This document shows positions 2,082 through 4,895 of a DNA stretch of 64,000 bases, piece after piece (position 1 is the stretch's first letter; every line of letters starts with the position of its first letter). The notes under the pieces are model-generated. The model was given only the letters and a program-made list of their open reading frames with translations. It did not search any database and had not been told where the DNA came from. This DNA comes from Desulfosudis oleivorans (GTDB lineage: Bacteria; Desulfobacterota; Desulfobacteria; Desulfobacterales; SURF-7), in assembly GCA_020723305.1 (NCBI GenBank), contig DYJC01000002.1, forward strand, positions 372,001 through 436,000, given 5' to 3'. A program made the translations under genes and the position numbers.

Positions 2082-2134
2082 ACCCAAAGCTGGTTGAGAT
2101 TTTGTGTGTGAACCTCTTTGGGAAAGATGAACTG

Positions 2135-2163
2135 TGTTTAGCATACTGCAGATTTAAAATCAA
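2135..2163 (-). promoter_or_regulatory. Proximal sigma70-like promoter (copy 1 of 3)
   Basis: On the minus strand TTGATT (2163-2158) is followed by exactly 17 nt and TAAACA (2140-2135). It lies upstream of the hairpin and riboswitch and would give a leader of about 205 nt for the 1204-1923 gene. The palindrome AACACTGTT lies 47 nt upstream of the -35 (2211-2219), and ATCAATCAAGTT lies between them. This unit is one of three diverged tandem modules. Confidence 0.55.
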
Positions 2164-2290
2164 GAGAAAAATTACAATGAATCTTTTTCTAAACTTGATT
2201 GATCCGAATAAACACTGTTCATGCGAACCCAAAAAAACACAAGGATCACAACCAGCGTGTCCACCTTTTTGTTTTAAAGAGCTGGAACCA

Positions 2291-2319
2291 TGTTTATCAT
2301 TCATTTTGTTGTATGTCAA
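2291..2319 (-). promoter_or_regulatory. Promoter-like module, copy 2 of 3
   Basis: Minus-strand TTGACA (2319-2314), 17-nt spacer, TAAACA (2296-2291). The AACATTGTT palindrome at 2349-2357 is 29 nt upstream of the -35. Same arrangement as copy 3. Confidence 0.45.
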
Positions 2320-2409
2320 GCAAAAAATAAACTTGATTGACTGTGATAAACATTGTTCAGGATGTGGTATATCCAAATCTCTTCAAAACATGTGAAAGAA
2401 CTGATTCAC

Positions 2410-2438
2410 TATTTACAGCTTTCAAAATGAAAAGTCAA
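2410..2438 (-). promoter_or_regulatory. Promoter-like module, copy 3 of 3
   Basis: Minus-strand TTGACT (2438-2433), 17-nt spacer, TAAATA (2415-2410). The AACATTGTT palindrome at 2468-2476 is again 29 nt upstream of the -35. The copy ends about 20 nt before the stop of the 2496-4640 gene. Confidence 0.45.
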
Positions 2439-2495
2439 GAAAAAAAATAACCTGATTGATGGGCGTGAACATTGTTTATGGCAGGAACGGTAATT

Positions 2496-4640
2496 TTATC
2501 GGGGTATGGAAGAAATAATATACTGATATTCTTTGGTATTTCTGATATTTGACAGATCCTTATCCTGTTCCATCACTTCCCGTTTGGTGAATCCGTTTAT
2601 TACAGCTTTCCGCAGCCAGTGCAGTGCCTGTGATTTGTTGTTCCGCAGAGAATAGGCGCACGCTATATTATAATAGATGCGATTGTCATCCGGCTGTATC
2701 CGGAGCATTTGCTTGAATGTTTCAATGGCGCTATCATATTCTTTTGTGACCATTTGTACGGCGGCCTTTCCCTGCAGGGCTGGAAGATGCCTGCCGTCCA
2801 GGTACAAGGCTTGGTGATAGTAGTCCATGGCTTCCCTGAAATTCCCTTTCAGAAAATACAGACGCCCTAACCGGGAGAGATACTCAATATTCTGCGGCTC
2901 GGTTTTCAGCCTGTCGAGGGTAATACTGATCTGCCGGTTAAATTTTTCAAGGCCCTCGACAGCTCGCCGGAGGTTGGCCGGAGCATCCGGATGATTTGGC
3001 TGGAGACGAAGCGCTTCCCGGTAATGAAAAATTCCTTCTTCCAACTGTTTTTTATCGATCAATGCAACACCAAGATCATTATGCGCATCTGCCAACTCCG
3101 GATCGCTCTGCAGGGCTCTCCTGTAATAATCGATCGCCTCATCCAGTTTGCCTTTATGATAAAAGGCCAGGCCCATGTTGCGGAGGGCGAATTGATGATA
3201 CAAGTTCAACTGCAGCGCTTTTTGATAAGCGGCGATTGCCTCGTCCCATAGGCCTTCGGCTGCCAGAGCCTTGCCAAGGTTTGCATGGGTTCGATCTTTA
3301 TGCGGTGATTTTTTTACACAGTCCTGCCAAAAAACAATCGGACTTGACCAGATATTGTTTCTTTCAATTGTCCAGTATGCAAGTAAAACAGTGATGAGCA
3401 AATATAATCCCATCTTGAAACGGTCGGCGGTTATGAAACGCCAGAGCAGCGTAAGAACAATTACGCTCAGATAAACAGATGGAAGGTAGGTTCGATGTTC
3501 AAAAATCAAATCCACCGGAATGATGGACGATTCGATTGCCAGATTGCCGATAAACCAGAGTATCCCAAAAGAGAGGAGTCGTTCTTTTTTTGAAACGGCG
3601 ATGGCAAACAGGACAAGGCCAATCAGTATGCCGGCCGATAGAAGTGTCGTAATGGGATCGGTAAACGATTGTGAAATCGTAAAATCATAATCAAAGTTCA
3701 GTCTATCCGGATGGGGAAAAAAGAATAAGCTTATATAATGTACGACCACGCGAAATTCTGTCAGAACGCGTTGATACATCGTAAACGGAAAACCCGCATA
3801 ATAGGTCGCAAAATAAGATTTCAGATAGCCAAAACCGATAATTAGCTGAAATAACAGAATCGAAAGCAACGTAACAATGATGGTGCCCCCGAAAAAGAAT
3901 GTAATGGCTTTTTTGCGAAGGCCTTGAAAGAAAAATAGTTCATACAACAAAATGTAAAACGGTAACGTGACCGCTATCTCTTTGCAGCCCAGTGCCAGAA
4001 GACCACTGATAAAAGAGCCTCCGAATAAGAGATGGCTGGTATAGGTTGTTTGATTCGAAATGGATGCAGCCTGAATTTTGTGTTTTCTTCCCTGAATATA
4101 AAGAATCATGGAAAGCAAGAAAAACAGGCATGCCAGGCTGTTCATCCGTTGCACGATGTATGTAACTGAGTTTGTTTGAAGAGGATGCGCAAGCCAGATC
4201 AATGATGAAAAAAATGGTATATATAACAAATGAGGCAGCCCATGGTCGGTAATCGTGCCCCCTTGTCCGTTTTCCTGCAACACCGTCAAGGTCTTTTTTA
4301 CCAATAGATAAATGAGGATCCCGTTCAGGATATGAATGATGACGTTTACCAGATGGTAGCCAAATACATCCAGTCCTCCCCAATAATAATTCAGGGCAAA
4401 CGTTGCGGTTGAGATGGGCCGAAGGCCATAAACGAATCTGAACATATTGCTGACAATTATCCACGATAGCTCCGTAAGGTGCAGATTGGGATTCTGCGTA
4501 ATCGTGATTTCATCGTCAAAATTAAAAGGGTAGTGAAGGGTGTGTGCATACAGCAGGAAAGTAAAAACTGATAAAACAGACAGTAGAATTAAATCAGCTT
4601 TGTAAGAAATTGTTGATTGTTGTTTGCGTTTTTTACTCAT
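2496..4640 (-). CDS. TMTC-like GT-C membrane protein with C-terminal TPRs
   Basis: An integral membrane protein of about 714 residues. The first 430 or so form about 11 membrane segments; the loop after the first carries FDDEITITQNPN, the acidic loop motif of GT-C glycosyltransferases using polyprenyl-phosphate sugars. The C-terminal 280 residues hold about seven tetratricopeptide repeats (for example AIAAYQKALQLN, AIDYYRRALQSDP), ending in an NIACAYSLRNN...DKDL..IRNT block. The start is placed at the second ATG (4640), which has AGAAAG just upstream. The layout resembles TMTC-type O-mannosyltransferases and bacterial relatives. A GT2/DUF2304 pair next door could supply a lipid-linked sugar donor. 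Acceptor unknown. Confidence 0.75.
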   Translation of the reverse strand: MSKKRKQQSTISYKADLILLSVLSVFTFLLYAHTLHYPFNFDDEITITQNPNLHLTELSWIIVSNMFRFVYGLRPISTATFALNYYWGGLDVFGYHLVNVIIHILNGILIYLLVKKTLTVLQENGQGGTITDHGLPHLLYIPFFSSLIWLAHPLQTNSVTYIVQRMNSLACLFFLLSMILYIQGRKHKIQAASISNQTTYTSHLLFGGSFISGLLALGCKEIAVTLPFYILLYELFFFQGLRKKAITFFFGGTIIVTLLSILLFQLIIGFGYLKSYFATYYAGFPFTMYQRVLTEFRVVVHYISLFFFPHPDRLNFDYDFTISQSFTDPITTLLSAGILIGLVLFAIAVSKKERLLSFGILWFIGNLAIESSIIPVDLIFEHRTYLPSVYLSVIVLTLLWRFITADRFKMGLYLLITVLLAYWTIERNNIWSSPIVFWQDCVKKSPHKDRTHANLGKALAAEGLWDEAIAAYQKALQLNLYHQFALRNMGLAFYHKGKLDEAIDYYRRALQSDPELADAHNDLGVALIDKKQLEEGIFHYREALRLQPNHPDAPANLRRAVEGLEKFNRQISITLDRLKTEPQNIEYLSRLGRLYFLKGNFREAMDYYHQALYLDGRHLPALQGKAAVQMVTKEYDSAIETFKQMLRIQPDDNRIYYNIACAYSLRNNKSQALHWLRKAVINGFTKREVMEQDKDLSNIRNTKEYQYIISSIPR

Positions 4641-4706
4641 AACATAACTTTCTGGTTTCATGAAATCATGTCTATATTTATTCCCCCTATAGTTGTTCCA
4701 TATGAC

Positions 4707-4791
4707 ATTCCCCCCTTGAGGGGGGCCAAGGGGGGGTGTTTAACAATCGCTACTGCTTACACCCCCCTAAATCCCCCCTCAAGGGGGGAGT
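4707..4791. repeat. C-rich palindromic repeat pair (CCCCCCTTGAGGGGGG)
   Basis: Two inverted copies of TTCCCCCCTTGAGGGGGG followed by (G)GGGGGGTGT face each other across about 20 nt, forming a long stem-loop. Related copies lie at 6064-6175 and 10414-10479, and a short piece lies near 61602. It lies between the TMTC-like gene and the DUF2304 gene and may also terminate or stabilise transcripts. Confidence 0.8.
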
Positions 4792-4895
4792 ATTTATGGC
4801 AATCTCCTTCAAGGGCGAAAAATGCAATATGCTACAATTATAGGGGGGAATTTGTCATAATTGTTATAGCCATATGTAAACCTGAATCAAGTTGA

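Follow-up and report, generated by a model that had tools for sequence, protein, structure and literature searches.

Tandem operator-promoter-like cassettes upstream of a c-di-GMP riboswitch and a filA-like gene in Desulfosudis oleivorans

Three diverged repeats in an intergenic gap of Desulfosudis oleivorans raise the question of whether they are stacked promoter/operator modules on the minus strand or the remains of a plus-strand coding sequence for a repeat peptide, the two readings offered in the preliminary description of the locus. The repeats were analysed within a 64,000-nucleotide stretch of the genome (the window; positions count from its first letter, and features lie on the minus strand unless stated otherwise). 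We favour, with a probability of roughly 0.78, the reading that this is the control region of a filA-like gene, in which three tandem operator-promoter cassettes, served by a predicted regulator, precede a riboswitch.

Layout of the cassettes and their leader

All window genes near the repeats lie on the minus strand, and the units occupy the gap between a TPR-protein gene (2496-4661) and the filA-like gene (1204-1923). Between positions 2111 and 2478, three diverged copies of one cassette were found, each consisting of a 30-bp operator-like site followed by a T-tract and a -35-like hexamer, with exactly 17 nt separating the latter from a -10-like hexamer (TAAACA or TAAATA), and with unit starts 138 and 119 bp apart. 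The AACANTGTT palindromes of units 3, 2 and 1 lie at 2468-2476, 2349-2357 and 2211-2219. They are followed at 29, 29 and 47 nt by the -35-like hexamers TTGACT (2433-2438), TTGACA (2314-2319) and TTGATT (2158-2163), and 17 nt past each of these come TAAATA (2410-2415), TAAACA (2291-2296) and TAAACA (2135-2140). The palindromes, distances and spacings given in the preliminary description were verified in the sequence, and the three tandem units are real.

The palindrome proved to be part of a longer, 30-bp site, which ends in AATCARGTT in the window units and has the general structure of a 13-bp palindrome TRAACANTGTTYA, about seven free bases (N7) and then YAATYRRGTT. Sites were scored with a weight matrix trained on sites of other loci only, the window's own sites being excluded. 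In the 64-kb window, this matrix ranked unit 2 first (30.9 bits; 2330-2359, TGAACAATGTTTATCACAGTCAATCAAGTT), the proximal unit 1 second (28.2 bits; 2192-2221, TGAACAGTGTTTATTCGGATCAATCAAGTT) and the distal unit 3, also recovered in genome pattern searches, third (27.7 bits; 2449-2478, TAAACAATGTTCACGCCCATCAATCAGGTT). Ten shuffled windows peaked at 15.3 bits. The next and fourth-best window score, 10.9 bits, belongs to a weak copy at 2111-2140 (TAAACACAGTTCATCTTTCCCAAAGAGGTT), which overlaps the -10 element and start region of the proximal promoter-like pair and is not significant by score alone; its counterparts in two relatives score 14.2 bits (G001, same genus) and 26.8 bits (G006, another genus of the family), and its distance to the upstream site is 81-82 bp in all three genomes alike.

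The pairs downstream of the operators were designated P3 (TTGACT-17-TAAATA, 2410-2438, 10 nt downstream of its operator), P2 (TTGACA-17-TAAACA, 2291-2319, with TG one base ahead of the -10) and P1 (TTGATT-17-TAAACA, 2135-2163, with TGC ahead of the -10). All three have a TTGACA-like -35 hexamer within the 16-18 nt spacing range of sigma-70 promoters, a feature kept in relatives for P1 and P2: P2 has the equivalent TTGACA-17-TAAAAG in G001, and P1 is the best conserved of the three. The -10 hexamers (TAAATA, TAAACA and TAAACA) lack the final T and depart from the TATAAT-like pattern with A second and T sixth, and a formal sigma-70 consensus scan requiring T at the last -10 position called none of the three pairs, P3 included. 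Because of both results, P1-P3 are termed promoter-like here and regarded as putative promoters. The -35/-10 pairs of the preliminary description are thus present with exact 17-nt spacing, but their hexamers are weaker than it had implied.

Beyond the operator and the -35 element, modules 1 and 2 remain similar, with a score that was reached by 1 of 1000 shuffles, and module 1 contains an 18-nt insertion. Modules 2 and 3 are not significantly alike outside these elements (their score was matched or exceeded in 881 of 1000 shuffles), so for this pair only the block of operator and -35 speaks for copying.

Downstream of P1, the predicted leader contains a strong, AT-rich hairpin of 11 bp (GCAAAAAGAAUUAAUCGUUCUUUUUGC, 2055-2081; leader fold z = -3.9), located between P1 and a c-di-GMP-I-UAU riboswitch aptamer (RF03168, 1961-2039) that scored 69.6 bits against a gathering cut-off of 65.9. 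G001 keeps a stem similar to this hairpin with different bases, and c-di-GMP-I aptamers occupy the equivalent place in both G001 and G006. The filA-like gene that follows encodes a secreted DUF6160 protein of 239 aa (PF19657, E = 3.7e-9); its match to the FilA model NF050077 (E = 1.1e-4) is far below the curated cut-off. The next gene (437-1171) encodes 244 aa including '...LYDTSGQASPTVSI...', and its product had no family match in family-model searches. A similar gene follows the filA copies in G006 and G001, and in the window this gene is probably part of the same transcription unit as the filA-like gene.

The filA control region in relatives and the opposite-strand reading

The filA control regions of the window genome (G000), G001 and G006 were aligned. 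The unit-1 site, TTGATT, the 17-nt spacing, ATGCTAAACA, the weak site and the riboswitch are kept in all three, with TTGATT, the spacing and ATGCTAAACA identical throughout, while the DNA between the conserved elements is largely unalignable across these three species and two genera. A search for the unit in related genomes, as the preliminary description had suggested, returned counterparts at the same place in both relatives, including one of unit 2 in G001 (L056:7014-7043) and those of unit 1 in G001 and G006. G001 carries two units, the first of which corresponds to unit 2, with TTGACA again following after 10 nt and the 17-nt spacing unchanged. Cassette number varies from three in G000 through two in G001 (units 1 and 2) to one in G006 (unit 1); among these genomes, triplication is special to the window genome.

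The same comparison bears on the plus-strand reading. The plus strand does contain the motif N-L-I-D-x-x-(K/E)-H-C, in the forms NLIDPNKHCS, NLIDCDKHCS and NLIDGREHCL, and some of the differences among these copies are synonymous, as would suit a decayed Cys/His repeat peptide made up of a 105-aa ORF (2078-2395) and a third copy. However, no single open frame runs across the repeats and species. The window units occupy two frames, one shared by units 1 and 2 and another used by unit 3, which has no start; the units of G001, 139 bp apart, are in different frames, one of them reading NLIDATKRRS with Arg-Arg in place of His-Cys; and the frame in G006 extends for only 20 residues. The 'synonymous' changes sit at positions that are degenerate in the DNA site, and the plus-strand peptide has no Pfam match. 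Sites at other loci, when read on the opposite strand, generally give N-L-I-x-x-x-(K/E)-(H/Q)-C in short unrelated frames (NLINTNEHCL at filB, NLIIIYKQCL at the second filA-like gene, and similar strings at lipoprotein genes). Because these other sites yield similar peptides in unrelated frames, the plus-strand peptide is best regarded as a by-product of the DNA site, and we attach next to no credence to a repeat peptide. The case illustrates that a strong DNA site can mimic a conserved peptide repeat.

The promoter/operator part of the preliminary description fared better. Support for it comes from two other species (one of the same genus, one of another) in which the arrangement is conserved, from recurrence of the site within the gene cluster and from homology between modules, while its peptide alternative is unsupported.

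Distribution of the site and candidate regulators

Genome-wide counts were obtained from pattern searches with the reversed pattern as control. In 12 genomes of the family, a first pattern matched 23 times and its reverse twice. With a stricter pattern, these 12 genomes had 18 matches and none for the control, and the corresponding numbers for 279 other genomes of the order were 3 and 2. A matrix scan of 210 kb of other related DNA found no match of at least 12 bits. The site is thus almost restricted to a single family. The exact palindrome TRAACANTGTTYA occurs at six places in the 5.4-Mb genome, three of them in the region studied here; the others lie before filB, before a lipoprotein operon and between two unrelated genes.

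In several genomes, and above the matched control, the same site was found before functionally related genes (filA, filB and lipoprotein genes). It precedes the C39-peptidase gene filB and a HEAT-repeat lipoprotein operon in four species each. In G006, it also stands before a second filA-like gene and before a gene for a 2215-aa protein. Lcl_C-type lipoprotein genes beside DUF6160 genes are preceded by the site in G001 and G006, the Lcl_C assignment having been tested for the G006 protein and judged by resemblance for that of G001. Adjacent matches to the FilB, FilC and FilD models (E = 6e-58, 9e-43 and 2e-60) were all below curated cut-offs, and FapD and FapF models also match in the cluster. 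Since related species also have the site in front of further genes of this secretion cluster, it looks like the signature of a small regulon, and we propose that it marks a set of secreted-fibre or surface genes.

The differing tandem copy number (3, 2 and 1) would also be expected if the units were a mobile or recombination-generated repeat, MITE-like or a protein-bound structural element, without a role in transcription. Yet there are few copies per genome, mostly at the starts of functionally related genes, and neither terminal inverted repeats nor target duplications were seen at the units. Moreover, conservation is sharply limited to the palindrome and box positions: in 16 aligned sites, this block is mostly invariant and the positions outside it are near random. 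A repeat of this kind is accordingly considered highly improbable.

No transcription factor gene was found among the inspected ORFs of the window, and none was obvious in the flanks that were read. An IclR-family regulator was considered since the core of the site equals that of the KdgR box: the KdgR consensus AAATGAAACAnTGTTTCATTT has AACAnTGTT in common with the site (PMC5559549), and both are odd palindromes with this identical core. A search for the exact palindromes in the literature returned nothing relevant beyond this box. Each of the four genomes of the genus encodes exactly one IclR_C protein. However, an IclR regulator is not found wherever the site occurs, as G006, which is ~99% complete and carries up to seven sites (as many as any genome searched), has no IclR_C match. 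There is no operator near the IclR genes, and the site departs from the KdgR operator in its outer bases (TR/YA) and in the second box, AATYRRGTT, at a fixed distance; the targets also differ, being fil genes here and pectinolysis for KdgR. We therefore consider an IclR-family regulator very unlikely.

Other candidates were rejected. Genes for MalT-like LuxR (LAL) proteins of ~935-1150 aa adjoin filA paralogs in G001 (contig C59, L065) and G002 (contig C131, L066) and lie near one in G006 (contig C63). The L065 and L066 paralogs have a riboswitch, but all three paralogs are without the 30-bp site, so that this candidate is unsupported. Near the G006 cluster there are response regulators and kinases, and near a weak G000 match there is a chemoreceptor, but no DNA-binding domain was found in these proteins. 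Reading TGAAC...GTT as an ECF sigma promoter appears to be ruled out by the 21-nt spacing and the palindrome, and an IHF-type site does not seem to fit the consensus.

Mode of control and relation to known systems

Within the favoured reading of the locus as tandem operator-promoter cassettes, a dimeric DNA-binding regulator would contact both the 13-bp palindrome TRAACANTGTTYA and, one 19-bp step along, the AATYRRGTT box that flanks it; the fixed box may take a second dimer or provide a further contact. Three sigma-70-like promoters would feed one leader, in which the c-di-GMP-I riboswitch, a model match, precedes the filA-like gene. The riboswitch would gate filA expression by c-di-GMP, adding control to all transcripts. 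Through the sites at filB-C-D, the second filA-like gene and the lipoprotein genes, the regulator would time transcription of the whole secreted-fibre system. Strong or layered control by the stacked modules, as first suggested for this locus, is plausible.

The position of the sites relative to promoters bears on the sign of this control. The filB site comes after a conserved TTTACA-17-TATRRR pair, with its end only 34-41 bp from the ATG; that of the HEAT-repeat lipoprotein operon lies between TTGACA and the -10-like TATGAA; and those of the second filA-like gene of G006 and the lipoprotein gene of G001 end 14-15 bp before the ATG. Repression seems somewhat likelier than activation, because the sites of filB and of the HEAT-repeat lipoprotein operon, like the weak copy at P1, either overlap core promoters or are placed at or beyond the predicted start. 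Each filA operator also lies downstream of the preceding cassette's promoter, and the pair of filA sites 81-82 bp apart would permit cooperative or looped repression.

The same cassettes could instead serve an activator, with each site recruiting polymerase from upstream of its own -35 element and the units stacked for strength. Weak -10 elements would then be expected, and at the filA units they are indeed poor, while the -35 elements are good. The palindrome centres, at about -69 for P2 and P3 and about -87 for P1, are at class-I-like distances upstream of all three filA promoters. On the other hand, the sites of filB, the HEAT-repeat lipoprotein operon and the second filA-like gene of G006 lie within or after the promoter or near the ATG, and the weak site overlaps the P1 -10 element in three species. 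We consider the activator rather unlikely. Some findings count against the favoured reading: no regulator gene turned up in the window or the flanks read, the -10 hexamers are poor, and G001 and G006 have fewer units than the window genome. In addition, the operator-to--35 gap is either 10 or 28 nt, a difference of 18 nt that does not correspond to complete helical turns.

Taken singly, the elements are familiar: operator-promoter modules in tandem are a known kind, as are c-di-GMP riboswitches. Tandem regulated sigma-70 promoters, found in bacteria generally, share with this locus several promoters in a row and in one direction, a regulator site for each and a single leader; here, by contrast, each module resembles a copy of one cassette, and the leader holds a c-di-GMP riboswitch. 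The above-gathering c-di-GMP-I (GEMM, RF03168/RF01051) aptamer in the leader of a surface-structure gene is nothing unusual. With the Acinetobacter fil operon (FilA-F, a putative pilus system) and the Pseudomonas Fap amyloid system (FapD, FapF), the cluster shares a FilB/FapD-type C39 peptidase, a FilC with a FapF-like end, an OmpP1-type FilD and a DUF6160 FilA-like secreted protein. It differs from them in scores below curated cut-offs, in the division of its genes into several units with their own operators and in that FilE and FilF were not identified.

In the literature searched, the site, its regulon and a triplication before a riboswitch were not found, and there was little on regulation of the fil operon. 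Tentatively, and with slightly less than even confidence, we suggest that the regulator is one not described before, that it recognises a distinctive bipartite operator made up of the 13-bp odd palindrome and the AATYRRGTT box, that its small regulon of surface-fibre genes occurs almost exclusively in one family of Desulfobacterota, and that amplification of the filA cassette to three before a c-di-GMP riboswitch forms a two-input, copy-number-tuned switch. The site offers a DNA signature, precise enough to be tested, of how fil/fap-like extracellular fibres are controlled in uncultured relatives of sulfate reducers, and the locus presents operator-promoter cassettes multiplied ahead of a c-di-GMP riboswitch.

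Several further features were observed around the locus. Some 8 kb to the left of the window, three consecutive tandem c-di-GMP-I aptamers (L049:8133-8418, minus strand; contig C45 of G000, 364132-364417) lie upstream of a gene for a small secreted protein (L049:7559-8119), and tandem aptamer pairs are also present in the G001 and G006 clusters. On the other side of the units, positions 5276-62597 hold a very long minus-strand run of glycosyltransferase, acyltransferase and export-like genes, which by inspection is an exopolysaccharide or glycan cluster adjoining the fil cluster. Short minus-strand frames at 148-401 may represent the remnant of an ISAs1-type transposase end. Finally, G- and C-run inverted repeats of the CCCCCCTTGAGGGGGG type, typical of dispersed intergenic repeats, lie between two genes at 4700-4860.
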